NCBI RefSeq assembly: GCF_016859285.1 | Contig: NC_053418.1 | Coordinates: forward strand, 25,614,829-25,678,828 | Source of the DNA: Xiphias gladius | Lineage: Eukaryota > Chordata > Actinopteri > Istiophoriformes > Xiphiidae | Direction: 5' to 3' | Length of the DNA: 64,000 bases | Shown here: positions 2,361 to 26,750 of the stretch, one piece after another | How the letters are laid out: each line of letters starts with the position of its first letter | Position numbering within the stretch: the stretch's first letter is position 1 | Program-made: the position numbers and the translations under genes | Notes under the pieces: generated by a model | What the model was told of the DNA's origin: nothing | Seen by the model: the letters and a program-made list of their open reading frames with translations, nothing else | The model's database searches: none

Positions 2361-5300
2361 CTAACTAGAAATGGCAAAGATTATAAGTCCGATGATGATG
2401 ACTGCTGCTACCACTCCGATGCCAATAAACAACACTTTCATCTTCTTGTTCTCCCATCTTTTCTTTTGCTTCACCTGGTTGCAGGTCTTTTCAAAAGCTT
2501 TACTCTGGGGGAAAAAAAAAACAAACCACAATGAAGATGTGTTACGTTGTGTAACCGACCTGCTTTTCCATGTCTGATAGTCTTAAGCATATGCCAAGAT
2601 AGGACAGCATTAGACCAAAGCTGGCGTACTAACTTCTATGACACTTACACAGCCTACTTAGGCAACATATCTAAAGCAGAAAAGACATTTCCCTACATCC
2701 ATATGCCAGTATCTGTTCTAGAATGAACTATGGACTGAGTTTCAGAGGCAATTTTATAGTTTGCAAGTTTGTTTTTCATGTGTATTTACGAGGAAGTCTA
2801 TTTAGATTGCATTTCTCCGATGTTTTCCCACTTTGCCTTTTTTAAAGCGATTATATTCAATGTTTTTATATTAATAATAGATTGCATGACTACCTTAGTC
2901 CGTCCGCAGCTCAACAAGCAGAGTCACATCATTTTCACGTAGCCCCAATGGCCTGTGTTACACTGCTTACTTATCTGAGATTTTTTTTTTTTAATTCTAA
3001 AAAAAGCTCTCAGAGAACTAAAAAAGCAAACAGGCAGATAACTTTTCGTTGCACAACCACTACAGGATACAATCTGTGGTAACATGGATTATGAGCAAAA
3101 ACAATAGGACAGCTCCCAAGCTGGCGTTTCGTGCTCCTACAAGTTCTCAGGGATAAGACCATTTGGCACCATGGTTAACTTTTGGCTGCACCAATCAATA
3201 CTTTTACATCGACAATGGATCAAATGACTGCATGTGATGTGAAATGGGCTGCTCGTAATGATGAACCCACAGAGAATTATCACCCAACTCTGCCATCCCT
3301 CACATCGCTATGGAGCATTTTAGCATCTTGAAATTCATTGTTTTAGTTTTATGGCCCACAACTTCACCTTTCTGGTTCAGTTCCACCACTCTCAAATTCT
3401 TTTCTGCCGTAGCAGGCAGCTGTTTTCAGTGAAAAAGCTCTAAAACCCACAACACACTACCTGCCCATATGGCAGTCAGACAAAGGGGGTGGCTAGTGGA
3501 GCATTTAGCAGCTGGAGAGTGAAATATTACCCCCAGGTAATGTTTCTCCATCACTGCTGGATTCGTAACTAAGCAACTGCTTGCTAACAAGTTTGCCATA
3601 TCCAATTGAAGGTGATAATATACTATATAGGACAGAGCAGCTTGTATCTGGTACAAAGCTGCATTTTTTCTGGCCACTTGGGGGCAGCGGGAAAAAGTTG
3701 TAAACACATTTTTGAAACTTTACCACTGTATAAACTTGTTATAAATTGTTATATTGCTTGTAAACATTTTACACCCAGCACACACAACATTAGCGTTCAT
3801 TTGCAGTCATGGCTTCTGCCACCTGGCCAATGCAAGTTTGTCCATCTGTCGTTTGGTGTTGGGCAGGTAGCATACAATGGGTTTATCAAGGCTTTTCCCC
3901 GTGAACGGCTGCCCGCTGCTGGTGAAAAAAAAAAATCGCTCACGTGAGACTGAATCAAAACAGTAAAGGCGGGCTGCAACACCAAAGCAATGGGCTGAAA
4001 GATGCTGAAGGGAACTGCAGAGTCTGGTGTGAGTCCGTCACTGTAAGCGACCCCTTTCGCATCCCATGGAGTCATTTGATCCACTGTTAATGAAATAAAA
4101 ATATTGATTGGCAAAGCCTAATCCTTTTCTAATTTCCTAAGGTATAATCCCTGAAAACTTCTACGAGCGAGAGTGAGCGGAACTTCTGCTTGAGAGCTGC
4201 TTTCCTAGCTTGCCTGTTCCTCACCCATGTCATCTGAAAGTGTATCCAAGGGCTTCTTGAACTTAAATTTGCTGTTTAGAGAACTGTTCAACGCTGTGAT
4301 GTAACGTAGGTCAACGGGGCAATGTGGGAATGATGTGACCCGCTTTTTGACCCCCGGACGGACATTCGTCTCGTGGCATGTCCTGGTCTCACTCTGTCAT
4401 ACCCAGGGAGACCAGCTCACTTCATTCATCTTAGGAAACAATAGGAAATACCTTTCTAAAAATAGCACCATCAAACACAATCAGGATGTAAATTGTACAT
4501 TTGTTTTCCTCTCCAGCCCCACCTAAGGTGTATTTATAGACATCGATATGACATTTCCTAGTTTCAATCCCTAGACGCCTGTGGAAATGAAGTGTTTATG
4601 CCATTTGCTCCAGTCATTCGTGCAACCCAGAGACCTCCACTTAGTTAAAACAGTGCAGTGTGACGCTAATGTTTTACACTTGAACGGCTTATCTGAACTC
4701 CCTCTACATACCTTTTCCAGCAGCACATCAGCCCTATCCTCCAGTTCGCCCAGTTTGCCAGATCTCTCTTCAGCCTTGTTCAGGTTGTCCAGCATGATGA
4801 CCTTCACCTCCTCCACCTCCTCCTGGGTCTGCTGCAGGCGGCTCTTCCCATTCTCCTGTCCAATCAACACAGACAACATGGTTATAGATGGAGACCTGAT
4901 GTGGATCTAGTCGCTTGGCACTTTTCACATTAATTCATGCGCTCACATTGTTTTGACTTTCCTGTAGTGAAAGAAAAATGCATAATGGTAATTTCTAAGT
5001 CTAAACGCCCAGTGGTCACCTATGTGTTTCTTGAGAGAAATTACCAGGCACACAGGGTGTTACACATTTCAAGTTATGGGATAAACAGAGACAGTAAGTT
5101 AACATGGGCAGTTAGCATGACCAGTCACTGGCACCATGAAAGTCAACTACGTAGAGTGCAGGCTAGAAATAACTAGCAGTGACCAGATTAAAAAACATAA
5201 CTAATAACTTATGCACGCCTAACTCTGATTCCCATAAATTTTGAATACACTCACTGAATGCGCTTTGGAATGAATACAATCAAATTTGATGTAGCTGCAA

Positions 5301-7082
5301 CATTTCAGTCGCCCGGGGCTTTTAATACATCCTGTTACAGGTCCTCTGTACTTTCCCACAGAGAACTAGAACAAGTGGTCAGAAGTATAGTACAAGTTAG
5401 TAGCTCCTTTTGAAAGTTTGATCGTTTTTTTCTGTGTCTCCTTCGCGGTTTTTGTCAGCACAACGCTAAAAAAGTAAGCACAATGAAAAGGCTGCCACCC
5501 TAAAAAAATGCAAGCTATACCTCTGCCTGATATAGATCAGACTAGCTTGCTGTTGTATAAACATAGTAATAGTCTTGCAGGGGATTTTAGAACAAGTCAT
5601 ACTGCTGGGGTATGTTTTTCAAGTAGGTTATCACAAGAGCACATTAATTTGTAACTTTGTAACTAAATTAATTATTATTGAAGCATGTAATAAAACAAAA
5701 CGTACGACAAACAAAGTAGAAGAGGGACAAGTTATGATAGATGAAATCAATAAAATGAAGTCGGACAGGTTCTCCCAGATCATGAAAATGACATTTGCGA
5801 GGCTGTTAACAATAACCTCTGTTTGTGCCGTGAGGACAAAGCAGCATGGGACAACAATATGTGAGCTCCCCAGCAACAGCCTGTGTGACCACCGATTGAG
5901 AAGAACCCTGGCGAAGGATATTTAGAGAGTAGTTTGACCTCAGAGTCATTCAGATCCTGACGGGCTTCTCCTTCACCTTTGCCCCCTGAGCCATGAGAGG
6001 AAGCCCACATCTCAGAAGTGAACAGGAACAGGAGCCCGACAGACGGAGCAAAACAAGCACACTCTCAGCATCTTGATTCGGTTCGTAAATCGCTCTCATT
6101 TCCTGTGAAGACTTTCATAACCAACATCCTGTATGTACAAGTTCACGGTAGGCTTATGAGCCTGGCGGAGAGGAGTAAACCTGCTTCTAATGAGGGACTG
6201 GTGAAAGCTGATTCACCGACGCCCCCCGAGAGCCCAGTGATCTCACTCTGGGCACACCAACGAGTAGCTGAACAATAGTCTGTGCTTCAAATTCGGCCGG
6301 CCGTGTCTTAAAACAGGCACTGCTGCCCCTTCCAGATCCCCTCCTTCCTTCCTTCCTTTGCTCACTCCCTCCATCCTGCCTGCTTTAATGTACCTGGCAT
6401 TATCCAGGGAAACCACACCTACGTCGTATTATAGCATGTCCATTACAGTGTAGTATGGTGCTTGGTCGGATTGGAAAAGTGAAAACACCTGCTGCTCTTT
6501 ACCTGGTAATAATAATAATGAGCCCGTTTTCTCAGTATTCGAGCCCATTCATACTTAGGGAGAGCGTGCGTGAGGGTTCATGGGATGTGAACCGGGGCTG
6601 CTCTTGAGCAGTCTTAATTCATAGGCAGGATCCAGACGCTCCTTTACACACACGCTTACTTCATCCGCCTTATTTACATCGGTCTCAGCCATCACTTCAC
6701 ACCCTGGTCCTGCTCTGAAATGAAGATCTCACAGCGACGAGACGGTGTGAAGCCGTTCACCACGCGTTTGCCTTTTTTTTTTTAAAAATCAGTCAGTCGG
6801 AGCCAGCCGTGTGCCAGAATCTCACCTGAACGCACTTCTCTGGAGAAAGGCTTTTCATTTCACGCGGAAGACGTTGCGGCTGCCAGCAGCTGCCGCGTCC
6901 CGCTTGACTACTGTTCCCTTAGAGGACTTTGCCCCACAGACGATTCTGGGTCACAGCACACTTTTAGAAAAGCATTCTGCCCGGAGAAGCTTTCCTCTCC
7001 TTTCCTCCCTACTCTTACCCGAGCTGTCCGTTTCACCAAAAGCTGTTTAGCCACCGGGAGACTGATATTTACTCCTTACCAT
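2361..7082 (-). CDS. vamp5: vamp5, vesicle-associated membrane protein 5 (R-SNARE), three exons
   Basis: This gene encodes a small tail-anchored R-SNARE, which pairs with Q-SNAREs to fuse vesicles. Coding exons on the minus strand are 7082-7080 (the ATG alone, followed by donor GTAAGG), 4855-4712 (48 codons after a CAG acceptor) and 2504-2361 (47 codons plus TAG), giving 96 residues. Exon 2 begins E-N-G-K-S-R-L-Q-Q-T-Q-E-E and carries the SNARE heptads, with the zero-layer arginine in A-E-E-R-S-G-K-L. Exon 3 holds the membrane-proximal Q-K-K-R-W-E-N, which matches the KKxWEN of VAMP5 better than the YWWKN of VAMP2 or VAMP8. A hydrophobic anchor of about 20 residues ends I-I-F-A-I-S-S. The length is typical of VAMP5. 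An in-frame ATG at 7265-7263 could add 61 residues, but that frame is not kept in the duplicated promoter, so I prefer the short start. Neighbouring vamp8 copies support the assignment. Confidence 0.88.
3215..3560 (+). repeat. Interspersed repeat, copy 1 (family shared with 52.1 kb)
   Basis: The block from about 3340 shares many stretches with 52080-52400, in the same order and orientation. Examples are the phrases around GCAGGCAG, AAAAGCTCT, AACCCAC and GTGGAGCATTTAGCA. I recall this as a common percomorph non-autonomous element, but I cannot name the family from sequence alone. It lies in vamp5 intron 2. Confidence 0.6.
5894..6002. other. 109-bp near-identical block, copy A
   Basis: This block in vamp5 intron 1 matches 16661-16769 with only two mismatches in 109 bases, while flanking duplicated DNA has diverged much more. 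The minus-strand frame containing S-H-G-S-G-G-K-G-E-G-E is open in both copies. However, both mismatches change the amino acid, and an indel shifts the frame just upstream in this copy, so coding is unlikely. It could be a regulatory element, part of a non-coding RNA, or a gene-conversion tract. Confidence 0.6.
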
Positions 7083-7304
7083 GTCTGTCGTGTCTCTTGC
7101 GGTGTTTGCGTCGAGGCTGTCACCGGATCCGATGCATTTAAAAGTGCGACTCGAGTCAACTCTCCGAACAGGAAACACCGCACACCAGCTCTGCCCTTCC
7201 AGACTGTGAAGCGCGCCTGGGCAACGTACTGCGACTTTTCTCCGTATCCGGTCTTCTCGTCTCAACTCGTCTCTGTCACTTTCACTTCTCCGGAGCTGCG
7301 TCTT

Positions 7305-7342
<38 letters not shown>

Positions 7343-7460
7343 AAACTGTGGCCCCTGGCTCTGAGGCGTTCATGGCATTCCCGGAAAATTTACAATTGCG
7401 AAAGGCGGTCACGTGACCAATCCTGAATTCTCCCCTACTAATGCTGAATCGATAAGGTCC
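7083..7460 (-). promoter_or_regulatory. vamp5 promoter region with palindromic E-box
   Basis: The region directly 5' of the vamp5 ATG is comparatively G+C-rich. It contains GTCACGTGAC at 7408-7417, an exact match to the CLEAR/E-box consensus bound by TFEB, TFE3 and USF factors, directly abutting CCAAT. A CT run occupies 7310-7336. The transcription start is not resolved. The duplicated promoter near 18.55 kb lacks the CACGTG core. Confidence 0.5.
7310..7336. repeat. (CT)n microsatellite
   Basis: An uninterrupted CT dinucleotide run lies in the vamp5 promoter region. It is absent from the duplicated promoter. Confidence 0.9.
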
Positions 7461-7484
7461 GGACTTCCCGGATTTGAAGACCTG

Positions 7485-7720
7485 TGTACGGAAGTACATT
7501 TACTCCAGTACTTTACTTAGGTACAGTTTTGAGGTACTTGTGCTTTACTTGAATGTTTCCATTTTATGCTACTTTATACTTCTACTCCACCACATCTCAG
7601 AGGAAATATTGTACTTTTTACTCCACTACATTTATTTGACAGGTAGTTACTAGTTACTTTTTGAGATGAAGTTTTCATATATGACAAACTTGTAAAATAC
7701 AATGCATTTTGAAAGATTAA
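7485..7720. repeat. Interspersed repeat rich in ACTTTACT/TACTCCA motifs
   Basis: Dense variants of AGTACATTTACT, TTGAGGTACTTGT and TTTTTACTCCACTACA are typical of a repeat I remember as very abundant in percomorph fish. Further related sequence may continue to about 8200. No coding potential is seen. It lies in DNA present in unit A only and helps explain why unit A is longer than unit B. Confidence 0.55.
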
Positions 7721-8330
7721 GCCAACGGTTCCTGAGCTTTTTGACTTGTGGCTCCCTGGAAATTCACAGTGTCTAATTGGTGATGCCCGTCATGTTTCAA
7801 ATGTCTATGTCTAAGTTTGAGAAAAGTTAAAAAAAAAGAAAGAAAGAAAAATACAAATTGATTTTTTTTCTTATTTCATACTGTACTCCATCAATCATCT
7901 CACAACCCCCTCAGATCTATTTTGTGACCTTTTAGGTTGAAAGCCACTGGACTAAACTAATTAACTGTATAGACCAGTTAAAACCAGTTCCATTTCAACC
8001 AGATGCAACATTAAAATGCTGCTTCCCCTTAAAACAAGTGCAGGTACTGATAAAACGTCTTTACTTGTACATGAGTAGGATTTTATATGCAGTACAATGA
8101 GCATATAAAATATGATGCGTTGTTCAACAGTACATAAAGCTGTAAAAATTATGTCCATCTCAACCAGCTTTTCTTGATTCAACTGTATGATGAATTTGGA
8201 GGATGTGGTGCTGTTCACTGCCTTATGTTGAGAGGTGTTCCTATTGTTTTGTCCACCTCATTCAAATCAATGAGGACAGGCTAAACAACAGAGGCAACTC
8301 TTTGTATAATGCAGCGCAGCTCAACAGCAC

Positions 8331-8334
8331 CACA

Positions 8335-8409
<75 letters not shown>

Positions 8410-8418
8410 ACACACACC
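8331..8418. repeat. (CA)n microsatellite
   Basis: About 40 CA units with one internal CT interruption near 8403. Confidence 0.95.
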
Positions 8419-10435
8419 GCACCCTCCAAAACGATCAAACAGTTGAATCAACACCTCTTCAACACAGTTGTGCCAGGTAAGTGTGAGTGTTTTGTGGTCA
8501 GTTTTTCACATTCAATTTTCTTTTTGCACTCTGAGTTAATCTTGAAGTTACCAGGGACACATGAATGCAGCAATCAGACGTTTCCTTATCTCCTTCATGC
8601 AACAGTCATACGCCTTATCTTTGTACATTGACTGTTCACTGAGAGTCTGGTGCTAGCCGACTCTTCCTCTTTTTACGGTTCATGTCATGTCGTGAACATT
8701 CATCTTGTCTGTTTTCTAGCAGGCCTTTGCATTGTGTGCCGTGTGGCCCACTGAAGGGTGTTGCCTACTTGTGGGCTGTGTGCAGTTTTCAGAGGGTGGC
8801 AGATGGTCCACCCTTGTGAGAAATATGCGTAATATTCATACAATATCCCCAAAGGGACTCCCAGTCTGTATGTGGTACTCAGTAGCAAACTTATATTTTC
8901 CTTACTGCCTTCTATGGTAGTTTCTTATTTCCTTCAAAGGAATTCTGTCATATAATTTTTGACCTATGGTTTTTATAACTTAATAATATCCTTTGTTATA
9001 ACTATAGCTTTTTTTTCTGTGAAAACAAAACAGCGGTGCTCTTGTTTTGCAGTGGAGTCATTTGGAGTAGTTACACAGACAGTAAGTCTCTGCTATGACC
9101 TCTGTTGGGTCACACTGAGACCAAAGTGTCTCTGTGAGTTTTCTGAAGCTGGACAGTTGGTCGTCAGTTACTAAAAGCAGCTGTGCTGTACTGAAGACTA
9201 CACAGAGTCTTAATAATAAGTGCTGCTGTGTGTGTGTCCCTGCCACACTTATGATAAGGGGCTGACAGGCAGACAACACAACTCCATTGTTCCTCAACTG
9301 CGTCACTCACATCAGCAATTAAAATTCTTTCCAACAGTCTTTGATTCATTCACTTTGAACTGATATTCCAAACAAGACAGCACCAGAAAGACCTCATCGC
9401 CGTCTCTGTTCATGGAAATGGTCCAAACATAAATGAAAGCTTGAGACAGAATTACATAAGAAGTTGATACATCAAAGGATGCAAAAAGAGGAAGTGAAAA
9501 AATGGGTGATCTAAAACTAAAAGGGCTCATCAGAGGTTTGAAAGTAAAGTATGGCCAGAAACAAGAAGTGGGGGTAGTTTACATGTTTCTTCCTAAAACC
9601 TAAAGGCCAAAATGACCTTGTTCATGTGAACTTTGTCAAAGATCAAAATCCACCAAGCTTCATTTAGGTGTCTGAATGAAAACATTGACTTAGATAAAAC
9701 TATGGCTGAAACCTATTAGCTTAAAAAGGATTAAACTCTCAAAAGTCACAGCTTATGTCCGTAAACTAATCATTTTGTTTGTACACGGGTATCATTTTAC
9801 AGAAAATGTTGTAACATATTGTTTTAAGGTTAAACCCCCCCCCCCCCAGAACAGATTACATGTAAGTGCTGTTCTAGGGAAAATGTATTTGTAATGTGTG
9901 ATGAATTTAGATATTTAGTTTGTTTAATTATTTTAATACAAAAGCCTGGAAAATATAAACCTAAAAGAAAAATGATCCAATTTTATGACCATCTTCTTCA
10001 CCGAGGGGACTGAACTGCTCGCTCCGACCATTCGCTGCCATTATGACATGACAATTATTGCAGTTGTGGGAAGTACTGGTGAAAATCCCCTCAAACAATG
10101 AACACTGTATAGAAAGTGAGTTGCTGCATGTGATCAAGCACCCAGACTTCAACTCTGTGTCAACACAAGCTCAAAGATAACCCTGAGTAAATACAACTAA
10201 TTCTAATGATTATCTTCTTTTATCAGCCTGGCCCCGTAACCGCTTATAGTTATTGTATCGCACATTGCGACAAACCCAAGCTAAAGCAGTGATCAAAGAA
10301 ACTGTATCACGTTAAAATCTGTGGTTTGAACTGGTGTCACTCTTCTTCTGTGGCAGGTCAACAGGAAAAACAACACTATCATCACATATGGTTTACATTA
10401 CAGTTACACTACTCTGTGGGCCCAATTGTACTTTC
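8419..10435. other. Unit-A-specific spacer, no gene seen
   Basis: No splice-bounded exon or recognisable protein. A run of 13 C residues occupies 9835-9847. This DNA has no counterpart in unit B, so it was inserted into A or lost from B. Confidence 0.5.
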
Positions 10436-10985
10436 ATTTCTTCTACCACCACTATGACTAGTAATACTATTGTTGCAATAATGTAAGTATAGCTTGATAT
10501 TATAATACAGGATATAATAATATACAATGCTATAGACTGTTATAGTATGTTTGTTGTTGTATATTATAATATAGTATAGCAGTTTAGTTAAGTATTTATT
10601 GTAATAGACTACATTTTACCATATTATACCATAATGTAGTATAGTATAGAATAATATGTTATAGCATAGTTTAATAAAGTATAGTTTTGTATATTTTTAG
10701 TATAATATAGTATAGTCTATTCCAGACTAGTATACTCTAGTCTGGAATAGCATAGTATAGTATAATTCAATATAGTACTGTTGTGTAGTGTAGTGAAATA
10801 CTGAATTATATTATTCTATACAACAGTATAATATAGCATGGTAGTGTAGTGAAGTATGGTGTGCATTCTTAGTGTAGTGTAATGCAGTGTAGTTTATAAT
10901 AGTATAGTCTAGTATAGTCGAGTATAGTATATTTAGTATAGTTTAGTTTAGTTAAGTATAGAATAGTATGATGAAATGGGAATAA
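10436..10985. repeat. Degenerate TATAG-type tandem repeat array
   Basis: About 550 bases are dominated by variants of ATAGTATAGT, TATAATATAG and TGTAGTGTAG without a fixed period. The pattern suggests a decayed pentamer or decamer satellite. A perfect inverted repeat with 13-base arms (10717-10729 and 10738-10750) and an 8-base loop lies inside it. Confidence 0.8.
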
Positions 10986-12200
10986 AAGCAACTTCAATCC
11001 AAATCTGTCAGCACTGATCTTGTTAACCTGTATCAGCTGCAAATATACCTCACATTCGTTTTACGAGCACATGCAAGCCTTGCGGCACTTGTGTCAGGTG
11101 AGACTGAGTGCTGAGGCACTTTTTCCTGAAGGCGTCTTCTTGATCTACCGGGACTTGAATCATACCTCATTTGTATGTCACTTTGGAGTCTGCCGAATAG
11201 ATAAATGTAAATGTACGATCCCATCTTCATAATAACCATGTAATAATCACCATGCATCGGGGACAGAGTATTGAAAGTTATTGTAACTGAGGCAGCACAT
11301 GAGCTTCGTTCAGGTCAGAGCTGCTGGGGTCAAAGACCCGCTCAACAAAGGCCGTCTTCTTGGAACAGCTTCACGAATACAAAGGCCATATTCAGCATGC
11401 TGACCACCCTCCCTTTGCATCATTGTCTAATACTGGTCCATGGATGGCAGACTCACATCCTCATGACTAACGCAGTCTGAGTCCAGGCTGATTTCCCATC
11501 AGTAACAAATGGCCTTTCAGTGGATTTTTTTTTGTTTTGGAGTTAGTGTTGGTCTGAGAGGCTGCTGTTCCAAAAACTCACGAGGCCCTTTGTCGTGGGG
11601 ATAAAACCTTAATAGTTTAGTCATCACTTGTTGACTAAACAGCACGTTCACACCGATTAGATGCAGAGATTCACTGTAGTTGAGTCAACAGGAGAGGTGT
11701 TATGACCTGTTCAACGGTCTACCTGACTTTTTGTTCTGCCTTGCTTAGTAGTTCCTCTACAGGTTGTTGGGTCTGAATGCAGTGTGAGCAGTTTGAGATG
11801 TTTAAAAAGTTTGGTGGGCATATTTCAGGTTGGGTTTTTTTTTAATTTTTTTTATTGAAAGACGCTGATACAATGTTTCAATCCATTTGATGCCTTTACA
11901 TGAATGCACTGAAGTCAGGAGGCCAGTCCAACAGTGGATGTGTCAGTCCACAGATCTTACGTTTTCATCTACCCTTATGCAAAAACAGTTGTGTGCAGAG
12001 TGAAGGCATGCTGGCAACCAGCCTCACCAGCTGGGCCTGATTTGTAGTATATCCCTTTCTTTCTTACTACATTCTTCAGTAGTACCCAAACTAATGACCC
12101 ACTTTTGTTTTAATGTTTGCAAAGTTAAATGTGCTACTCTGTGAGGTGATTGCAGTATTTCAAATATTCCCCAAACATTTTCGCTTTTGCTTTTTGCTAT
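10986..12200. other. Spacer, no gene seen
   Basis: Only short chance frames are present, with no convincing repeat family, RNA gene or exon. Matching to unit B resumes near 12.2 kb. Confidence 0.4.
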
Positions 12201-13450
12201 TGCTCAGTTGTGTGTTGTATTACTGAAGCCTGTAAATAACCTGAACGGAAACCAAACGTGTGAGAACATGTGCAATCATGACCTTTAAAGTTTCACCTAG
12301 AGAGGATCTGAAGCACCAAGGAAGTCTTGGGGGAATCCCCTCTGATTTACTTCCTCAAGTCTCAGACCAGTCAGACTCTCTATCGACACCTTGTGGCAAT
12401 TCAACAAACAGCAGAGGAGTAAGAGTAAAAACTGTACTATTTATTTTACAGGGGCTTCAGAAAGCATTCAAACTTCTTCACTTTTTGCACGCTTTATTGT
12501 GCTGTAGATTTAATTTTGAATGGGTAAAATTTCAATTTTTTAAAAGTTTTTTGCAAATTTATTCAAGATCAAAAAAGGAAATATCTCATTTGCAAACGTA
12601 TCCAGACCCTTAATTCAATACTGTGTAGAAGCTCCTTTGGCAGCAATTACAGCTTCTCGGATAAGTGTTTTTCCCGTTTTTTCCCGGCAGTTCCTCTCAT
12701 GCTCTGTCAGATGTATCAGACAATAAAACCTTATTCTGTAGACCAAAAGTCTAAAGAATACGACCCCTGTGAAAACAGTGACAGACCTGCTCCAGCTGTG
12801 GCCTGTATGAGCAGAAAAATGATCACGTGGCATGGATCTGCTCAGTGTGTCAAAGGGCAATGAGAATGGTATCACTGTGGCCAAAATCTACGTAAAAAAG
12901 GCTTTTCAATTTTTGATTAAAATGAAAGAACATGAATAAAACATAGAATCAATAGCCTCAAAAGAACAGATACTTCCAATAATACAGTAGTTAAAAGCTG
13001 TAGCAAATATACAGAGAGGGGGAATATGGTAACTATATACAGCTCATAATTGGAATAATATGACTTCTTGTGCAAGATGGGAGGTGAGACTCATGCGATC
13101 TTTGCTCCAGGCTTGTTTTCTGAAAAATGACTAAGTGTTCTGGAATATAATTTTTTTTTTCTTTTTTTTTTTGTTATAAACTGAGTCTGTGGAGACCTGT
13201 TGGTTGACATTGGCCCTGTAGGGGGAACCATGAGGGGGCTGTAACTGATCTCCCTCAGCTGGTTGGCTGGAAGAGCCTGAACCTCCAACACTAGAAACGT
13301 GGGAACAGACTCTTAACAGCTGACCCTGGTGTTGTGTTTATTGAATCAAAGTACCAAAGCTTCCTTGGGCCTCCAAAAAGCTGTGTCTGTTTATGTCCTG
13401 CCCTCAATCGACGCTTCAATGACCTCTGCAGCTACACTGAAGCAGGAAAG
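12200..13450. repeat. Duplicated segment A2: flank 3' of the vamp8 copy
   Basis: The segment is collinear with about 19050-20110. Shared landmarks include the CCTTGTGGCAATTCAACAAACAGCA region, the CAAATATACA(T/G)AGAGGGG region and the AAGATGGGAGGTGAGA region. Both copies keep a minus-strand AATAAA (12445-12440 here), so the segment may be distal 3' UTR of vamp8, which is inference. A Tc1-like fragment interrupts this copy only. Confidence 0.7.
12448..12690 (-). mobile_element. Tc1-like DNA transposon end fragment
   Basis: The plus strand reads GGGGCTTCAGAAAGCATTC, then a variant of the familiar terminal sequence, then CCTTTGGCAGCAATTACAG. This is the reverse complement of the terminus also found near 22.8-23.0 kb. 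It sits inside duplicated segment A2 and is absent from the matching place in unit B near 19.25 kb, so it arrived after the duplication or was lost from B. No transposase is encoded in this fragment. Confidence 0.75.
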
Positions 13451-15020
13451 CTGTCTCTGAGCTGAGCTGAAAAAGTCAAAAACAGCTGAATTTCACACCA
13501 TTAAAAGGGAGCTGCAAGAAATTTGGGATTTGTGCAATTTCACAATTATGTGATTTTATTTCTGCAACAGATTTTTTGTGCAAAAAAAAAAAAAAATCAC
13601 TTTCTTTAACTCTGATTGTGTCTTACTAACATTTGTACACGATGAACCTCCCATTGTGCAGCAGGAACCTAATCAAGGAGCTAATTTCAACATTTAAAAA
13701 CTATAGCAGTGCTAACATTCATCCAATAAACTATTTGATAAATATAATACGAATTTCAGTGGATTTCTACTGATGACCTTTTTCTAGATTTTCTGATTTA
13801 GTTTGGATTATTGCATGGATTGTGCGCAGAAGTGGTTCTATGCATTCCTGACTATTTACAGGTTATCTGTTCTGATGGTCTCCAATCAGCCAAGGTTCTG
13901 TGCTTGCTCCTATACTATTTACAATGTACTTAACACTAAAATGACTCCAGCGTGTATCCATTTCTTTGAAGATGACACAGTCTCGCAAACCTTTGGTCCT
14001 TCTCCAAAGCGAACTAGATGAAAGACTGCCATTAACGTTCTTCAGACATCTTCGCATAATCTTCAACTGCTACTCAGTGCTGTTTTACTCTCAACAACCC
14101 ACACTTCCATCTTATATCTTGTTGCCATTCCCACACCAAACTGTAACGATAAGGTCTGCAATGCTTTAGATTACAAACCACAAATTACAGTGTCAATATT
14201 TTGTAGGTGGGGACGGAAAATTAACAATTGATTCATTAGATGGTATATAGTGTATATAGTGAAGTATTTCTATTCGTTTCTGGGACTGCTTATTATCTTA
14301 GGATACCACAGGACATAAAAGCTTCTCATACAAGGTTCTCCTCCAAAAGCAGTTTGGATTTTCAGATCCAGATTCAAACCTTCATTTTAAAATGAATACT
14401 TAGCCTTATGTTTTGTCCCCCAGCAACAATAATATTGTATAAATAAGAGAATAAAAAAGTATTATATGTTTGTAAATATATCATCATTTTAAGATACAGT
14501 AAAAGATAGGGTAACTTATTTTACTGCAATATCAACACTTTTACCCTGTTATTCCAAATTCTCCTGTCTTTTTACTCCATAGCAATATTAGTGCTCCATA
14601 ATTATTAAATTACTCAGTAATTAAATTAAAAAATACTTAATGCCATGTTTTAAATCCCCCCTTAAAGACTAAGTTGTTACCCCCTTATTCCTCAACCTCT
14701 TGTTTTCTACTTACAAACTGTACTGTTCCTGGTATTGGTGCCCCGTATGTATTTGATTGATAACTGTAAATACAACATAACGGCATTGTAATTTGAAGGG
14801 TTGTAATCTAAAATGTTACCATCATTTCTATCGGCCACCGAATTTCTTTTTTTCGCTCTGCAAGTACACAACAGTTGCCGTCCTTCGTGAAGGTGCCAGC
14901 GTATTAGGGACACTGAGATTCATGCGGCGAATTGTATGAGTAGTACTTTGCATATTGTGCAAAAGGAAATTGTTTGTTTATTATTTAGTTGCGTCTGTAA
15001 GTACGCTATGTGTATGTTTG
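13450..15020. other. Spacer 3' of the vamp8 pseudogene, no gene seen
   Basis: AT-rich sequence with poly-A and poly-T runs (for example 13579-13598) and chance frames only. No exon signals or recognised repeats. Confidence 0.4.
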
Positions 15021-15029
15021 TGTGTGGTT

Positions 15030-15900
15030 ATGGCCTGGAGGTCTGAGCGACTTCAGTAGGGATGACTCCAGTGGCCAGCAGGATGATGATGAGGACGATG
15101 ATGAGGACGACCACCACGATGACCACGATCAGCCACTTTCTGAGACGTCTGCTTGAAGTGCTGAGCCTGAGCGGGGAGAGAGACGAGACAATCCGCTGAA
15201 GCAACACACTGTGGGTTCCTGACAAACTGCAGTTAGTGTAATGATGATAAGAATTTACTGAAAGAAACGCATTTCCCGAAATGTAACTTCCTTCCTGACA
15301 ATGGGCGATACAGCCTGTGCTTTGATGCATTTGAACCTCAGACAAAAGTTTGTCGGGCTGAAGAGCTGAATCATTCATTTCTGTGCTGTTACTGTCATGT
15401 CTTGACTGTGGGACGCCCTCTACTGACCTTTAACACTGGTGGAACACTGAGATCATATTTCACACATCCCACTGTAACTGTGCAGTGCACCAAAGATGAA
15501 CAAAAACAACCGACATCACAGCCCACTTTTACACAAATCCTAGTAAAAGGATAAATTCCCGGGGTAAGACTGACCGCTTCTTCCATTTCCTCTGACGTGA
15601 TGACCAGGTTGACCACCTTTTCTTCTCGTCCCATGATTTTTTCAACATTCTGCTTCATCATGTCTGTGACTTCATCTATCTGGTCCCTTAAGGTCTGCCT
15701 TTTGTTCTGTGGCGCTGGCTCTGCTGCCACTCCTCCCTGCTCCTGGGATTGGGTAGGAGAGAAAAAAAAGGATGAAAGAGTGTGCTTACTTCATAGCTGT
15801 AAGCGCATTACATGCAAGACTTTAACCAATTGCCACTTCTATTTCAAAATAACATTTAATCCAAACCTTAAATTCGAGCATTTGTTTGCTTTGAATTCCT
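15030..15900. repeat. Duplicated segment A3: vamp8 exons 2-3 and adjoining intron
   Basis: The segment is collinear with about 21236-22100. Similarity continues upstream of exon 2, as in the AATTGCCA...TTTCAAAATAAC stretch near 15830-15855 versus 22055-22085. This sets the right edge of the duplication at or beyond 15.9 and 22.1 kb. Confidence 0.75.
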
Positions 15901-15964
15901 TCCAAACATGAGCACAGCCTGAACTCCTTCTGTATCCTTGCTAGCTGCACATCTGGGTGTGACA

Positions 15965-16125
15965 ACGGGAAACTTTGGTACAGACTGAAATAACTCAACA
16001 ACTATCGGATGAAATGAAATGAAATCTGTGGCAGACATTCATGTGCCCAGAGGATGGAGCCTACTGACTTTGGTTATCCTCTTGTAATTAGCATGTGTGG
16101 TTCAGCATAGTGATGTTAGCATTTT
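15965..16125 (-). repeat. Interspersed repeat fragment (family shared with 56.8 kb)
   Basis: On the minus strand this resembles the repeat at 56820-57060, with phrases like CATGAATGTCTG, a GATTCATCC-like stretch and TTGTTGAGTTATTTCAGT. I recall the family as common in teleosts. The copy lies at the junction between duplicated units A and B and may have been involved in their unequal exchange, which is only inference. Confidence 0.5.
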
Positions 16126-16559
16126 TGCTTAAAGCGCGGCTGTGTGTAAGCACAGCTTCACAGAGCTGTAGACGCTCAGTCTTGTATGACGGCAACCAGG
16201 CTTTTAATGTCGTGCCACTTAGACTTTGAAATCATTTTCGTAAAGAGCTCAGGACTACTGAATCAGTATCATCTCTTCAATATCTTCTTATCACACATTT
16301 TCACGGTAAAGCCCTTGATTATTTCATCCTATTTGTTATCCCATCGCCTGGATTTATTTAGTCATTGCTGTAGGATGTAGCTTATTTCTTTTATTTTATT
16401 ACTGTTGACTGAACTAGTTATCTTTTAAATCAAGTAATGGAAAAAAAAAAGATTAATAAAGTAGCTTTCCCCAGCACCGAATGAAAGTCGTGCACTGGAT
16501 AAAGCTGAGATGAAACTTAAATGAGAAACAGAATGTGTCATGAGACATGAAACTAAAAA

Positions 16560-18580
16560 TATGAAGTCAAGCAGGTTTCCCCAGATCATGGCCGTTTACA
16601 GTAACATCCGTTTTCTCCAGGATAGTAAGGAAACAAAAACCACAATGATGTATGACTACAGATTGAGAAGAACCCTGGCGAAGGATATTTAGAGAGTAGT
16701 TTGAACTCAGAGTCATTCGGATCCTGACGGGCTTCTCCTTCACCTTTGCCCCCTGAGCCATGAGAGGAAACCAGCATATCAGGAACAGGAAACCAACAGA
16801 TAGAGCAGCACAAGCACACTCTCAGCATCTTGATTGTTATTGGGATGTAACCTATTCTGCTCATGACTGCCCATGTAGCCAAAAATATATTTCATATTAC
16901 CTTTCAGAGAGACATCATATTTCCCCTTGGAAATATAAGAAATATAACCCTACTGGATAGGGTGGAGACATTTCTTCATATTTATTTAGCTTTTTGTCTT
17001 GATTTAAGATTTGTATTTATTTTATGTATAATTATCTCACAATTCTTCCCTAGCCCCACCTAAGTTTAAAACTCAGTCTGCTTAGACTTACCTCATTACA
17101 GTAAATTACTCCATGTCAACACTTCACAGACATTCATCATGCTTTCATTTTTTGTTTCTGAAATTTTCAACCAAATCAAGTTTCATTTCTACTCGACCCA
17201 AATGGTAATATAAGTGCATTTACTGACAATCTTTCTGGTGTTTACTTTCTGGATCATGATTCCTCATTTTAAAAAAGTAAACGTTGCAGTTGACAGCAGC
17301 TAGGGTGTCCTATTCTCCCACCATTACCTTATCGAACTTTGCCCACAGACTATGTAGGATCAGAGCATAATGCATAATGTTCTCTTCGACTTCCATGGCA
17401 CAGCATTTAGCATATTAAAAATCAGGCTACCATTCTCTCACCATGTCTGCCCCCTCTCCTGCTGTGTTTGTGCCAAGCCTGTCATGTATCCAGTGCTTTT
17501 AAACGTGTGTTGCTGGAAGAACAGAGCATCGTCAGGGGTGATGTCATCCTGTATCAGCCGGTGACACTCATGTTCAACCAATGCGTTAGTCAGAGGGATT
17601 TTTTTTTTCCTAACATGCACACCTTTTCACTCATCCAATCAAATCTAACTGCCTTTCTCTCCATAAGTGACAGAACATTGGATTAACCGTAGGATTGAAC
17701 CCACACTGATCTGTTTTAACAGGGAGTACGTCACATTGAGGAAGTAATGGTACCATTTGAAGGGACCCTTAAAATGGGACTGAAGTCAACTTCGGAAGCA
17801 GGAAACACTTATGCTTATGCACTTCAGCTGCACTCAATGGGAACAGGAAAAAAAAAAAAAACTTATTCCAACTTGGGAGTGTTCATGCATTATTCCAGTG
17901 TGGTAAGCCCTGGTGCTAACCTTGTGGTCACTCCAGATAAACAGCCTAAACAAGCTCTATTTGATGTGTTACCTATTTGTAGCAGTTTGGTACCAAGTAA
18001 AACCACATACCAACAAACCACGTGTATAGCTCCTATGAAATGAGCTGAACTGATTCATGGAATTGTATCAGTGTTTATATTGGATTCTATTTTGATGTAA
18101 GTGCCAGCAGTGGTGCATTTGCAGCCATTTTTCCAAAAATTTGTTGATATGTGTGTAGTTCTTTTCACCATGTGGGAGATGTGATCAGTGTCCGAAATCC
18201 CTGATATCCCTGACTCAGAATTTCAAGTTGGAGGTTTTTTTTTCCAACTGGGCTGCTCGTAGGTAGGGTGTAAACAACGTGAGGCGAACGTGTCCTACAA
18301 CCTCACAACCTCACAGCGCTGCTAGCAGGGCTGCAGACACTCTTTCTACCTTTTCTTTCTCACATCGCTTCTTTGTCTTATTGTTTGTTTTTCCTGTATG
18401 TACCGGAGACCCCCTGGAAACCAGTGTAATACTATATGAATTAACCTGATGGAATGAAGTAAATTTAAACTGAGAATCCCGTGCTGTGGCTGTTGGACTC
18501 TGTGATCTCCGATTATGTTGCCTCCAATGTATTCCCAAAAAAGTTTACCATTACAAAAGGGGATCAGATGACCGTTCTAA
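16560..18580. repeat. Duplicated segment B1: orphan vamp5 promoter and first exon
   Basis: The segment is collinear with 5750-7460 but roughly 40 percent diverged outside the 109-bp block, by eye. It keeps an ATG at 17444-17442 followed by donor GTGAGAG. At the distal end the CACGTG box of the vamp5 promoter is replaced by GATCAGATGACC. It lies 5' of the 15 kb vamp8 copy on the minus strand, so it may or may not still drive transcription. Confidence 0.7.
16661..16769. other. 109-bp near-identical block, copy B
   Basis: The partner of 5894-6002. The two mismatches are C versus A after TTTGA and A versus G after CATTC. It sits about 670 bases 3' of the duplicated first exon, in the intron of the chimeric vamp8 copy if that transcript exists. 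Confidence 0.6.
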
Positions 18581-18589
18581 CTAATGCTG

Positions 18590-19040
18590 ATCCCTGGACG
18601 TGGGTTTGACAGACGTGGGCTTTTATCAGGTAAGGTCTAATGAAAGATGCATCAAGGTGAATCATGGGAAGTGTAGGATGTAATGTTTTTGGATATTGAC
18701 CCATATTAGGGACTGAGGGGTAGAATATCTCAGGCTGTGCTGCTTTGACTTCGACCATTCTCTTTTTTTTGATCTGTCTCTTGCAACTCCTTCAACTTAT
18801 TGGATATACAATACTTAATTGCTGGAGTGTCCGTTTAAGAAGGTGATTGCTGGTCCTTGAAATAAATGTGTACAGTTTCCATAAACTAAATTAACTCATT
18901 TCTCTTTTCTTTGAGGTGTATCCTCCAGTATTTTGTATCCACTATAGCACTGGTGGAACCTGAGCGACGTTTAAACTGGAATTGGCTTCTTCTCTATGTG
19001 GCTTTAGAGGTTTTGATCAGTTTGTGGCTTATAATTGTTT
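18590..19040. other. Spacer within unit B, no gene seen
   Basis: Unique-looking sequence between duplicated segments B1 and B2. Frames are short and there are no exon signals. Confidence 0.4.
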
Positions 19041-19049
19041 TATTTTGAA

Positions 19050-20110
19050 ATATATCAGTTATCAGGTGTTATCAAATTTTATTTTTACCACTGCTTAGTT
19101 GTGTATCTACAACTAAAGCCTGTGAATAAAAGAGAAGCATTCCTAAAGTCTCAGGTCAGCCGGACCATCTGCCTCCATCTTGTGGTAACTCAACAAACAG
19201 CAATGGAGGGGAAACCATCACAAGAGAGCCGGAGTAAATACTATTTATTTCATATCAGACCATTAAAACCATTAAATGCCACAAGTCATCAGTACAAGAC
19301 CCTTAGTTAATGACATTGTGAAAGGGATCGACAGTGAAAACCTGCTGCAGCTGGAGTGTGTATGAACAGAAATACAGTATGATTGTGTTCTCACACAGCA
19401 TTGATCAGGTCAATATCAATGTGTTCAAAAGGCAATAGGATTAGGACTACTGCATCCCAGAAGCATGTCAAAAAAAGAAAAAAGGAGAATAATTTGTTCC
19501 AGCACAGCCTCCTTTTTATACCTACTTCTAGAAAATGACTGAGCAGCAGAGGAACTGAACTGTACTACTATGATTAATCAGCCTGGATTATTTGTTGATA
19601 CAGAAACCACACACAGCTTTCATTGGCCCATTTTTGATTAAAAAAAAAAAAAAAGAGAAAACAACTGAACATTAGTGACAAAACGCATAAAATAAATAGC
19701 CTCTAAGGAACAGATACTTTCATTAACACATTGGTATAGGCTTTTGCAAATATACATAGAGGGGAGCATATGTTGACTATATACAGTTCATAATGGGAAT
19801 AATGTTGACCTCTTTGAAGCTAAACTGGCTCTGTAACAGCAGAGCAAGATGGGAGGTGAGAAAGCCAAGAACTCTGCACCAGACTTATTTTCTGAAAAAT
19901 GTAGCCTGTGTGTTTTGGAATAGAATTTTCTAGTTGTGAGCGGCTGTGACTGAGAGGGCCTTTTTGGTTGACAGGGACCCAGCAGGGGGAGCCACGGAGG
20001 GGATGTAAATGATCTCTTTCAGCTGGCTGGCTGGAGAAGCCTGACCCTCCAACACCAGAACAGACCTTAAAACAGTTCACCCTTCTGGTTTTCTTTACTC
20101 TTTCAGGTAC
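19050..20110. repeat. Duplicated segment B2: flank 3' of vamp8
   Basis: The segment is collinear with 12200-13450, without the Tc1 fragment. A minus-strand AATAAA at 19249-19244 is kept in both copies. A minus-strand frame near 20060-19935 reading V-L-E-G-Q-A-S-P-A-S-Q-L-K-E-I has a similar frame in unit A. The conservation is short and no splice context was found, so I do not call a gene. Confidence 0.65.
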
Positions 20111-21235
20111 CAAAGACCTATGTTAAAACTCCAATATTTCTAGCGTTAAGACACCGTGAAGGAAAGAATTAATATTATTTGTTAAAAAAGGCTGATGATA
20201 CTGCACAAATCGACAATTTTTTGTCATCTTCCCCTCCAAAGGGCCACTCATGTCTAGTAGAAAAACCACATAACCTCAAATGTTGTGTTGCTTTTCAGCT
20301 TAAGGTCTCGTCTTCACTTTCATGGCCCAAATATCTGATGTACATTTAAAGATAAACTCCTGGAATCTGTTCGGTAGCCGCTGCTGATATTTTGAATTCC
20401 AACACACTCCAAAATATTTCACAATTATGTCATTTTTGTCCTATCACAGATACGCTCTGTGCACAGATACTGTTTTGTAACTTTGACTGTGTACAGAGTA
20501 GGAAAAAAGAACTAAAGCAGTGCTAAGTATATACATTCAATAATCTTTTCTAGATGTCTGAATACAAAGAAACTGGAAGCACTTTAAAAAAAGGTAACAT
20601 ACATATCTAATACACCATTCAGCCTTTCATTAATTATATTGTTGCAGATTTGTGCTTGGTGCATTTCTCCAATGTCAAAAATTTCTTCTGGACACTGCAT
20701 TTTTCATCTTCTGTCCTTTGTAGTGCACCTGAGTGACAAACAGGATGTCTAGAAAGAGACTGGAGGAATCCACGTTCATTATTTCCATCTGCACATATTA
20801 AAGTGACTTCCTCTTTGCTAGAATGAAATAAGAGTTGGTGGTGAAACAGTTAAAGTGCTGACGGTGGTGTCATGAAACGTCGTTTGAAAACAGTGATAAG
20901 TGTTTTTTTTTCCCCCCGCTGTCAGGTGAAGTCCTCAGACTTTTTAGAAAAATCGGTGTAATTTTGTACTAATTTAAAAATGGCTAAACTGGAACTATGT
21001 TTGAAAGTTTCGAAGGTTTATGTGTCATTGACATTGCTTAAACCAAAGTATGAAGTCCTTAAATTCCTATAAAAGCATGAAAGTTACCAGTAGAAACAAA
21101 CTAAGAAGTAGTAAAGGTTCCACTAGACAGCAGTGATTTGCTTGAGTCTATATATTACTTTTTATCCCTCTGCAACAGGGATGTGGGTGTTTGGGATTTC
21201 ATTGTTTATGTATGTACATATGTGCATGTTTGTGT
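20111..21235 (-). other. Probable vamp8 3' UTR or 3' flank
   Basis: No coding exon is visible between the vamp8 stop and segment B2. No canonical AATAAA was noticed close to the stop. The first duplicated one is at 19249-19244, so the 3' UTR may be about 2 kb. This is inference. Confidence 0.3.
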
Positions 21236-21851
21236 TTATGGCTTGGAGGTGGGATTGACTATAGGAGGCAAGGGAGCACTGACAGGGATGACTCCAGTGG
21301 CCAGCAGGATGATGATGAGGACGATGATGAGGACGACCACCACGATGACCACGATCAGCTTGACGTTCTTCCACCAGTAGGAGCGAGCCACTTTCTGAGA
21401 CGTCTGCTTGAAGTGCTGAGCCTGAGCGGGGAGAAGGGGGGGTGTTAGTACCAAGACTGGCACAGCAATCCACACAAGACACAGAATGAATGGGCTGAAA
21501 GCAACACACACATGCAGCCTGATAATAGTCCTTTTTCATGGAAGACATTTGGACATTTTACATTAATCATAAATTAATAAAATGAATGATGGCTGAATGC
21601 TATCAAGACTTACTGTAACAGGTAAATGGAATGGATTTTACACAAATCAAAGTAAAAGAATAAACTCCTGTGGTGAGACTGACCCCGGCTTGCAGGTCCT
21701 CTGACTTGCCCATGAGGTCGTCCAATCTCTCTCCTCGGGCCAGGATCCGGTCTACATTCTGTGTCATGATGTTTTTCACTCCATCTACCTGATCCCTCAA
21801 GGCCTGCACCTTGTCCTGGCGCTCTGGTGCTGCCTCCACTCCTCCCCGCTC
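21236..21851 (-). CDS. vamp8: vamp8, vesicle-associated membrane protein 8 (R-SNARE, endobrevin), exons 2 and 3
   Basis: VAMP8 is a tail-anchored R-SNARE of late endosomes, lysosomes and secretory granules, used in endosome fusion, regulated exocytosis and autophagosome-lysosome fusion. Minus-strand exon 2 (21851-21684, 56 codons) runs from E-R-G-G-V-E-A-A to S-E-D-L-Q-A-G, with the zero-layer arginine in I-L-A-R-G-E-R-L and the VAMP8-like string [11 protein letters not shown]. Exon 3 (21421-21236, 61 codons plus TAA) gives the rest of the SNARE motif, the Y-W-W-K-N-V-K-L linker, an Ile/Val/Leu anchor and a short lumenal tail ending N-P-T-S-K-P. With a one-codon first exon the protein would be 118 residues, longer than the mammalian 100 because of extra N- and C-terminal residues. 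Exon 1 was not located. By analogy with vamp5 it should be an ATG followed by a donor to the right of 22 kb, possibly in the promoter-like region near 25.7-26.7 kb. The intact frame makes this the functional copy. Confidence 0.88.
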
Positions 21852-22249
21852 CTTGGATTGGACAGAAAAGTCATTTGAGAAAATAAATTGAGGATCAAAG
21901 TATAACACATGTCCAAACTTTATCCTGTAGTTTTTAAATTAGTGTATAAAAAGCCATTGTGGAATTTTGCCCACAACAGAATGCTTATTTGGATGTGTTT
22001 GTAGCAAGGAACCTTAGATAGATGCAGAAACTTGACCATATTTTAGGGTTTAAACAATTGCCAATTTGATTTCAAAAATAACCTTTACTTTCCAAACGTT
22101 TAGACTCTCTCAGTGGAACCATTGGAGGTTCTGGATATTAATAACATTTCCGAAAGATTCAGTTTGGTTGCTGTCAGCAGCTCAGCACTGAAACAGGTGT
22201 TTGTGATATTTAGCCTACCCTCAGGTTTTCAGACCTCTTCACTTTTTTC

Positions 22250-23010
22250 ACACCTCTCCACATAGAGACCCTGTGTGGAGATGGGAGAAACTTCCAGAAG
22301 GACAACCATCACTACAACAACTCTCCACTGTACTGGGCTTTATGGCAGAATGGCCAGACGGAAGCCTCTCTTCAGTGAAAGACACATGAAAGCTGGAGTT
22401 TACAAACAAGCACCTAAAGGACTCCCAGACTGTGAGCAAGAAGATTCTCTAGTCTGATGAAACCAAGACTGAACTGTTTGGCCTCAATTCTAAGCGTCAT
22501 GTCTGGAGGAACCAGGCACTGCTCATCATCTGCCCAAAACCATTCCAGCATAGCATCATGCTGTGGGGTGTTTTTCAGTAGCAGGGCCAGGAAGACTGGT
22601 CAGGGTTGAGGGAAAGCTGAATGGAGCAAAGTACAGAAATGGGGGGGTGTTTTCACAACACCTGGTCCAGCGCTCTCAGGACCTCTGACTGGGCCAAAGG
22701 TACACATTCCAGCAGGACAGTGATCCTATGCACACAGCCAAGACAGTGCAGGAGTAGCTTGAGGACAACTCTGAGAGGTGTGCAAAGCTTGGTTCATCAT
22801 ACCCAAGAAGACTCCAGTCTGTAATCGCTGCCAAAGGTGCTTTAAATAAGTACTAAGTAAAGGGTCTCAATGCTTATGTCAATGTGTTATTTCAGTTTTT
22901 CCTTTTTAATAAGTTTGTAAAAATTTGTAAAATCCTGTTTGGGCTTTGTCATTATGGGGTACTGAGTATACACTGATGAGGGAAAAAATGAATTTAAACA
23001 ATTTTAGCAT
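22250..23010 (+). mobile_element. Decayed Tc1-like DNA transposon, internally deleted
   Basis: Plus-strand sequence retains the transposase region around AAGATTCTCTAGTCTGATGA, with a residual S-D-E-T-K-x-E-L-F-G-L-N-x-K-R-H-V-W-R string and CATCATGCTGTGGGG. It also keeps the stretch around ACAGTGATCCTATGCACACA and the 3' end (GCTGTAATCGCTGCCAAAGG-like, then GTCATTATGGGGTA). Part of the coding region just before AAGCTTGGTTCATCATACCC is missing. Multiple stops and indels show it is dead. It lies upstream of vamp8 exon 2, probably in intron 1. Confidence 0.82.
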
Positions 23011-23279
23011 AATGCTGTAACATAACTGCTTGCCAGTAGGTGTAGGTTGGGCATCAATGATCTTCAGGATATGCACAAGAAGGACCAAACAGATATCCAA
23101 AGTATAAACTTCCACCAGATTTGGAAAAGGAAATGATTGCATTGTTCAAACTCTTAATGTAGACACCTTTTCTTCAGAGCTTTTAATGTCCTGACATTGC
23201 CTTAGTTAAACTGTATTAGTTTTTTTGCAGAATGTCTGTAGTAAAACATGGTGTGTTTGATACCTTAATAAATTAGTAT

Positions 23280-23600: not shown

Positions 23601-23609
23601 TGAGAGGAC

Positions 23610-25640: not shown

Positions 25641-25649
25641 TTTGGAAGC

Positions 25650-26750
25650 TTCTCTTCAATTCAGAATTTTGTGCGAGCAAAACAGGGCTTCACTCAATAA
25701 CATGGCCACGTGACCACTGCTTCTCTTCGCACAGCCTCGTTCATACAAAAATATTGTCTCCGGCTTGAGCCTCCCGCGTCAATGCTAATGCGCGATTGTG
25801 ACACGCTGGGGCTGACAACCTAAAAGTTAGCAGCAGGGAGCTCAAGCTGGTGAAAGTTTACTCAGAAAGTGTTTCACTGTGGATGTAACATAACAGACAA
25901 TACGGGGGGGGGGGGGGCTCTCCGGAGAGAAAAGTGGCCACTAAGAGTTGTCATGAGCCATAGTGCGCCGGGGCTGTTATCGCTATCACTAGGCCGTGTA
26001 AGTTAGCATTAAATCGCCACATCCCATAGTGGAGCTCGGCTGCAGGCGCAAGGTTCCACCGTCAGTGACGCGGAGAGTGGTGCTTTTGAAATATGTGTGG
26101 AAAGCAGACGTTTTATCGGTTGAGGAACGGAGCGAGATCCCCCTATGGATTTATAACATGAGAAAAAAAAAGAAAAGCTTTTATGTGAAGTGTCTGGCTT
26201 AGTTTAAGTGAACCCCCCCCCCCCATTGGTTTAACCAAAGACTGTATGGTTTCAGCAGTGGGTGTTATTTAGGCCATTTTGTGAGGCCACCCTGGGACTT
26301 ACTCTCTCAACAATGGAAAGTTTAATGCGCCGATTTAACCAGTTTTCGGACCTGGTTAAATAGATTTAAGTTAAATGCAACATATACTATCCGGAAATAC
26401 ACCTGTTGCATGTCGTGGTCTCCTACGTTTAACAAGCTGACGGCGGGGAGACTTTCTAAACAACAAAAACACAAGCTCCAAACACTATCACCTACCGGAT
26501 CAATGTCCATCTTGTTGGAAACAATGCCCTCCGACCTCAACCCAGTGGACCGTCTTACTTTTAAGTTGACGCTATTATTTAAAACCTTTTAAAACCGCTT
26601 AAGGACTTGAAAGTTTGATGCTCCACCGAAGCGAAAATGTTTCCTCCTCTGTTTAACTTCCTGGTAGTTTCTGCCCCCCCCAAACTGAATTCCGTCGTGA
26701 CAAGTGTCAAGTTGACCATAACACAGCCACGATCTCCTGACCACATTTAA
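25650..26750. promoter_or_regulatory. G+C-richer, promoter-like region upstream of vamp8
   Basis: Relative to its AT-rich surroundings this stretch has more CpG and G+C. It contains an E-box GCCACGTGACC at 25705-25715, a G14 run (25904-25917), a C12 run (26213-26224) and an inverted repeat ATTTAACCAG...CTGGTTAAAT at 26333-26361, whose left arm with the following TT gives AACCAGTT, a fit to the Grainyhead-like consensus AACYRGTT. I infer a promoter, most simply that of vamp8, but found no unambiguous ATG-plus-donor exon in it. Confidence 0.35.

Follow-up and report, generated by a model that had tools for sequence, protein, structure and literature searches.

An old vamp5-vamp8 chimeric duplicate, probably now a pseudogene, in the genome of Xiphias gladius

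A chimeric gene arises by tandem duplication when the two ends of the duplicated segment fall inside two neighbouring genes. In Drosophila yakuba, according to the available part of the source, tandem duplications create chimeric structures and move regulatory elements (Rogers et al. 2017, PMC5460883), and the adjacent human VAMP8-VAMP5 pair yields read-through hybrid RNAs, as described in the accessible text of PMC3041646. A lumpfish study reports vamp8 expression, and the part of it that is available has no mention of vamp5 (PMC11357929). Among the papers listed by our literature searches, none described a vamp5-vamp8 chimeric gene of fishes. Here we describe such a chimera in a 64,000-nucleotide stretch of Xiphias gladius DNA (contig C19, NC_053418.1, positions 25,614,829-25,678,828), hereafter called the window. 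All VAMP genes of the window lie on the minus strand and are therefore named from the high-coordinate end downwards: vamp8 (copy A), an orphan vamp5-type exon consisting of the ATG (17442), a second vamp8 body (B), and vamp5. We read B, with a probability of about 0.68 from sequence comparison, as an old chimeric duplicate that was once converted in exon 3 and is now a pseudogene; it is perhaps still transcribed. The coordinates of the features are collected in Table 1.

The window was compared with itself by blastn (word size 7, E≤0.1; 4000-16100 against 16101-26000), as an earlier note on this DNA had suggested. Fourteen matches were obtained, 12 on the same strand and strictly collinear and two inverted. 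The collinear blocks start at 5731/16537, 5882/16649, 6871/17281, 7075/17437, 12351/19140, 12775/19331, 12942/19686, 13537/20416, 13696/20507, 14958/21171, 15527/21636 and 15821/22049. Three of them are individually weak (E 0.008, 0.008 and 0.029), and the collinear repeats stood above the controls: 20 shuffles gave no match each, and control comparisons with four further segments of the window, each of 9.9 kb, yielded 0, 1, 0 and 2 matches, the last two being inverted, transposon-like pieces near one place (better E 8e-16). The shuffles were permutations of 3-base blocks in this case and of 2- or 3-base blocks throughout, and are not true dinucleotide shuffles. All three block pairs listed by the earlier note, in the same order and strand, were recovered with slightly different ends; the distal part of the first pair, near 18.58 kb, was missed by blastn and was found by Smith-Waterman alignment (7346-7447 with 18500-18590; score 55, against a mean of 25 and a maximum of 39 in 100 shuffles of 2-base blocks). 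The collinear blocks support the history given in the earlier note as the simplest: a segment comprising vamp8 exons 2-3, the flank 3' of them, the vamp5 promoter and the first exon of vamp5 was duplicated head to tail.

The ends of the duplication lie within two different genes, at about 22100 in vamp8 intron 1 and at 5731 in vamp5 intron 1. A weak extension to the left reaches 5582/16350 (score 51, against a maximum of 46 in 100 shuffles) and is still inside vamp5 intron 1, and at the junction a comparison of 15870-16536 with vamp8 intron 1 beyond 22100 gave a score at the level of shuffles (34; maximum 37). The greater length of unit 2 comes from DNA at about 7.5-12.2 kb that has no detected counterpart in unit 1; Smith-Waterman alignment of 7481-12200 with 18590-19140 scored 40, and 30 shuffles had a mean of 40.3. 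Outside two more similar tracts, the aligned bases of the two units are identical at 168/226 positions in the exon-2 region, 54/71 in the exon-1 core and 273/339 in the 3' flank (74, 76 and 81%), and therefore the duplication is old. Shared transposons, which the earlier note had considered as another cause of the repeats, were rejected: the blocks carry coding exons with Pfam Synaptobrevin matches, and the block at 5882-6078 has only two matches in the genome searched (690.8 Mb, 1298 contigs), both in the window. Inverted transposon-like matches of 73-76% identity were also seen outside the collinear set, pairing 15972-16082 with 57027-56916 and 12538-12652 with 22932-22819.

Each of the two parent genes gives an open spliced model with GT-AG introns. 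The vamp8 A model encodes 122 residues. Its exon 1, predicted from frame and donor, reads ATG GAC ATT GAT CCG followed by the donor GTAGGT at 26510-26496, which would place intron 1 at 21852-26495; a CpG-rich stretch (25700-26200; observed/expected ratio 0.82) lies just inside this intron. The spliced protein, queried without DIDP, matched Pfam PF00957 (Synaptobrevin) with E 6.1e-33, and its best PDB match was VAMP8 (7bv6, E 2.7e-25). Intron 1 of vamp5 is at 4856-7079. The name vamp5 is a putative assignment from the place beside vamp8 and the short-brevin anatomy; among the 16 PDB matches listed for it, VAMP2 came first and VAMP5 did not appear. The earlier note had placed an intron directly after the ATG in both genes. 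This does not hold for vamp8, whose modelled exon 1 encodes MDIDP, but the first introns of both genes are in phase 0 (that of vamp8 from the predicted exon), and therefore a vamp5-type ATG could be joined in frame to a vamp8 exon 2. The phase compatibility of 17442 with 15742 was thus borne out.

The first exon of the chimera is homologous to that of vamp5, with 75% identity by blastn between 7075-7146 and 17437-17507, and TTTAAA stands about 55 nucleotides upstream of the ATG in both. Both vamp8-derived exons of B, at 15.7 kb and at 15.1 kb, lie 3' of it, in the arrangement that had been proposed. The chimeric protein matched Pfam PF00957 with E 3e-13. The three best of its 14 PDB matches were endobrevin/VAMP8 (1gl2, 7bv6 and 4wy4), the query ending before the frameshifted tail. 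The zero-layer Arg of the SNARE motif is kept in B, where the numbers and register of the SNARE layers are those that we presume to apply.

Exon 3 of B lacks 29 nucleotides that are present in A, between two GCT triplets, and the frame is therefore shifted before the membrane anchor. With the normal acceptor, translation of B ends at 15055-15053, short of the former stop codon at 15028, and the C-terminal transmembrane anchor is not in frame; the predicted product has 94 residues with a short, basic, histidine-rich tail and no membrane anchor. We assign the loss to B because the exon of A is VAMP8-like through the missing segment. The genome-wide Pfam search gave 16 matches, and exon 3 of B was not among them, though exon 3 of A was found. 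B keeps its introns and carries a frame-disabling change, which fits an unprocessed pseudogene.

The 29-nucleotide gap lies inside a tract in which exon 3 of A and B match without a mismatch for 118 bases, gaps ignored. Within the tract the last 13 intron bases and 36/36 codons, 21 of them fourfold, are identical, against 74% identity in the exon-2 region. The probability of the run by chance would be 6e-16 (0.743^118) or 8e-12 (0.805^118). Beyond the tract, the last 48 nucleotides of A (30 in B) differ, with an 18-nucleotide difference in length. Because selection at the protein level leaves silent sites free to change, we infer that part of B exon 3 was homogenised with vamp8 A by gene conversion. 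The direction from A to B seems likelier, since B is the relaxed copy and the exon of A is VAMP8-like; B could have served as a donor before its deletion. From its place in the tract, the deletion would have arisen at or after the conversion. The other similar tract, in intron 1, is the block at 5882-6078 with its partner at 16649-16835, and its similarity may reflect either conversion or constraint. One reading frame of 16649-16835 gave no Pfam match, and the whole window gave no Rfam match at the gathering score.

Exon 2 of A and B is identical at 118/168 nucleotides and 25/56 residues without an indel. The 50/168 differing bases (31/56 residues) fall on codon positions as 13/18/19. When the 7bv6 chain of VAMP8 was used for comparison (45/56 exon-2 residues compared), 17 of 26 differing residues matched A only, two B only and seven neither (p 0.0007). 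A VAMP gene on contig C20 of the same genome, of uncertain type (PDB best VAMP2, then VAMP8), matched A only at 16 residues and B only at three (p 0.004; 44 residues compared), and with it as an outgroup the lineage-only base changes by codon position were 9/8/7 for B and 2/4/3 for A. Exon 2 of B thus appears accelerated, with changes evenly spread, the pattern of a copy under little constraint. The C20 gene (22239883-22241432) has a similar exon-2/exon-3 layout and the ATGVI end, as in vamp8; our guess is that the genome duplication of fishes may have left it as a vamp8-like paralogue.

The promoter of the chimera was also compared with that of vamp5. The observed/expected CpG ratio is 0.36 at 17380-17860 in the chimera and 1.04 at 7000-7480 in vamp5, against a window background of 0.34. 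A CACGTG palindrome, which we take to be a TFEB/USF-type site, stands at 7410 in vamp5 and reads CAGATG at the homologous place in B; another CACGTG is found at 18019, in unmatched DNA. The proposal of a vamp5 promoter in front of a vamp8 copy stands as a history of the DNA, and as a working gene the chimera is doubtful, given the 29-nucleotide frameshift, the accelerated exon 2 and the CpG-poor promoter, which lacks CACGTG at the homologous place.

The following course of events would account for the locus. A tandem duplication whose breakpoints fell in the first introns of vamp8 and vamp5 made a chimeric gene, in which a phase-0 intron connects the vamp5 promoter and ATG exon with vamp8 exons 2-3; intact copies of vamp8 and vamp5 flank it on either side, and the collinear blocks show this history. 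The chimeric copy then evolved under what was probably little constraint. Gene conversion, which the silent sites show, gave a stretch of its exon 3 the same sequence as in vamp8 A. At or after the conversion, B lost the 29 nucleotides between the two GCT triplets, with the shift of frame before the anchor.

Several observations weigh against B being a pseudogene. The ratio of nonsynonymous to synonymous rates (dN/dS) between A and B in exon 2 is below 1 by the methods NG86 (0.323/0.626; 0.52), LWL85 (0.304/0.516; 0.59) and YN00 (0.291/1.156; 0.25), values in which the pairwise comparison averages in the constrained A. Exon 2 of B has an open frame free of indels, and among its 12 SNARE core-layer residues 11 are either the same as in A (8) or conservatively replaced (3). 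In a neutral simulation, the joint probability that the frame stays open and the layers are kept was 0.21, 0.074, 0.022 and 0.007 at 20, 30, 40 and 50 substitutions in B, and therefore some past constraint on B is possible. The open frame by itself is unremarkable (0.17 at 50 substitutions), and the difference in identity between layer and non-layer residues is weak (8/12 vs 17/44, p 0.08). In addition, the anchor frame of B still runs uninterrupted as far as the former stop codon, and therefore the break may be young. This frame is open over 133 codons (15031-15429, minus strand), about 87 of which precede exon 3 and belong to intron 2.

Several other explanations were considered. B may have been a functional vamp8 paralogue until recently, and the animal that was sequenced would then carry the 29-nucleotide deletion as a null allele that is young or still segregates. 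The core layers are kept, and the converted tract has had no base change since the conversion, so that the deletion would not be much older than the conversion; on the other side, the accelerated and evenly changed exon 2 and the CpG-poor promoter point to a long relaxation, and we consider a recent null allele unlikely. It is quite improbable that the chimera is expressed as a soluble R-SNARE of 94 residues, a SNARE helix with its central Arg and no anchor; such a protein would join complexes but not draw the membranes together, and so would damp fusion of the VAMP8 type. The normal-acceptor frame does give 94 residues, with the zero-layer Arg kept and 10 other exon 2 layers identical or conservative in the presumed register, and since the last exon holds the stop codon, the exon-junction rule would not predict decay of the RNA. 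Against this stand the even changes over the codon positions, the CpG-poor promoter and the change from V to R at layer -7. Taken further, the chimera would be a working regulator, in which a vamp5-type promoter drives a recently anchorless, vamp8-derived R-SNARE as a soluble competitor of VAMP8-type fusion, and this we regard as highly improbable.

The anchor could also be rescued by a shifted 3' splice site. Use of an acceptor at 15196 would give 112 residues, in which a frame-shifted linker of 21 residues replaces the normal one of 21 residues, and the length of the linker is thus preserved (residues counted by hand). Seven AG sites yield a frame that contains the anchor, which is open upstream from 15429, but about one third of AGs would fit by chance. 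As judged by eye, the pyrimidine tract is better at the normal acceptor, and layers +5 to +8 are missing from the new linker in the register that we presume; such a rescue is very doubtful. An assembly artefact, either a haplotype duplication or a mis-joined repeat, would make the mismatch-free run of 118 bases in exon 3 less surprising, as this run is unusual. Such an artefact, of which the haplotype form had been named in the earlier note, is extremely unlikely with only 74-81% identity in the three stretches outside the most similar tracts, the position of the locus in the interior of a contig that measures at least 25.7 Mb, and no further vamp8 body found genome-wide. A genome search with 21150-21950, in which the best candidates were scored, gave 11 matches, three at the two window loci and eight elsewhere, and all of these eight were confined to query positions 368-454, a short repeat.

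Table 1. Features of the vamp8-vamp5 locus (positions in the window)
Feature	Position	Strand	Basis
vamp5 exon 3, transmembrane segment and stop	2361..2504	-	genome-wide Pfam match
vamp5 exon 2	4712..4855	-	PF00957, E 1.8e-9; genome-wide Pfam match
Duplication unit 2, 10.1 kb	5731..15869	.	12 collinear blastn blocks
vamp5 intron 1 block	5882..6078	.	171/187 aligned bases identical to 16649-16835 (91%)
vamp5 exon 1, ATG-only	7080..7082	-	donor GTAAGG
vamp8 3' flank copy, unit 2	12351..13296	.	blastn blocks against 19140-20060
Chimera (vamp8-B) exon 3, 29-nucleotide deletion	15028..15166	-	comparison with vamp8 A exon 3
Chimera (vamp8-B) exon 2, open SNARE motif	15575..15742	-	genome-wide Pfam match
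Duplication unit 1, 5.6 kb	16537..22100	.	12 collinear blastn blocks
Partner block, chimera intron 1	16649..16835	.	alignment to 5882-6078
Orphan vamp5-type exon 1, ATG-only	17442..17444	-	donor GTGAGA from 17441
Chimera vamp5-type promoter	17445..18590	-	CpG-poor; about 1 kb of unmatched DNA splits it
vamp8 3' flank copy, unit 1	19140..20060	.	blastn blocks against 12351-13296
vamp8 A exon 3: SNARE motif end, transmembrane segment, stop	21236..21421	-	genome-wide Pfam search
vamp8 A exon 2, R-SNARE motif	21684..21851	-	Pfam PF00957; best PDB match VAMP8
vamp8 A exon 1, coding part (predicted), MDIDP	26496..26510	-	read by eye; donor GTAGGT; from frame and donor

Upstream of vamp8, candidate exon frames resembling ncaph (condensin subunit H) were noted on the minus strand at 30000-40600. 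Beyond 22.5 kb there are 508 open frames, of which eight were chosen by eye, and two of these eight matched Pfam Cnd2 below the curated cut-off (38529-38810, E 0.0027; 40300-40569, E 0.0011). The Pfam scan gave no match for the other six, which we presume to be ncaph as well. An NCBIfam search and a search against viral contigs returned no matches.

The locus shows how breakpoints in two first introns yield a splice-compatible chimera, and how a converted tract can stand in a copy that later breaks. If the chimera were expressed, it would offer a natural test of the action of an anchorless R-SNARE. Being probably a pseudogene, it is mainly of value for annotation, where automatic gene prediction might list a spurious vamp8-like gene at this place or mask the frameshift by a moved splice site.

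The closest kin of B in the PDB, VAMP8 (endobrevin; 1gl2, 7bv6 and 4wy4), differs from it in that B is without an anchor in the normal frame. B resembles, as a matter of general knowledge, unprocessed pseudogenes that were converted by a functional neighbour, in its local high identity, frameshift and relaxed codons; unlike these, it has a chimeric promoter and first exon, and its exon 2 is still open. The human read-through RNAs involve the same neighbouring pair, but as far as the available text of PMC3041646 describes them, they are hybrids made by read-through splicing with VAMP8 first, whereas the window chimera is formed at the DNA level with the vamp5-type exon first. The D. yakuba chimeras (PMC5460883, in the part available) are alike in their origin by tandem duplication with relocation of regulatory elements. 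They were described from a population sample with RNA-seq, whereas the vamp chimera comes from one genome, is an old event with a frameshift, and is known from DNA alone. The window chimera is a further case of this described kind, the chimeric genes made by tandem duplication.

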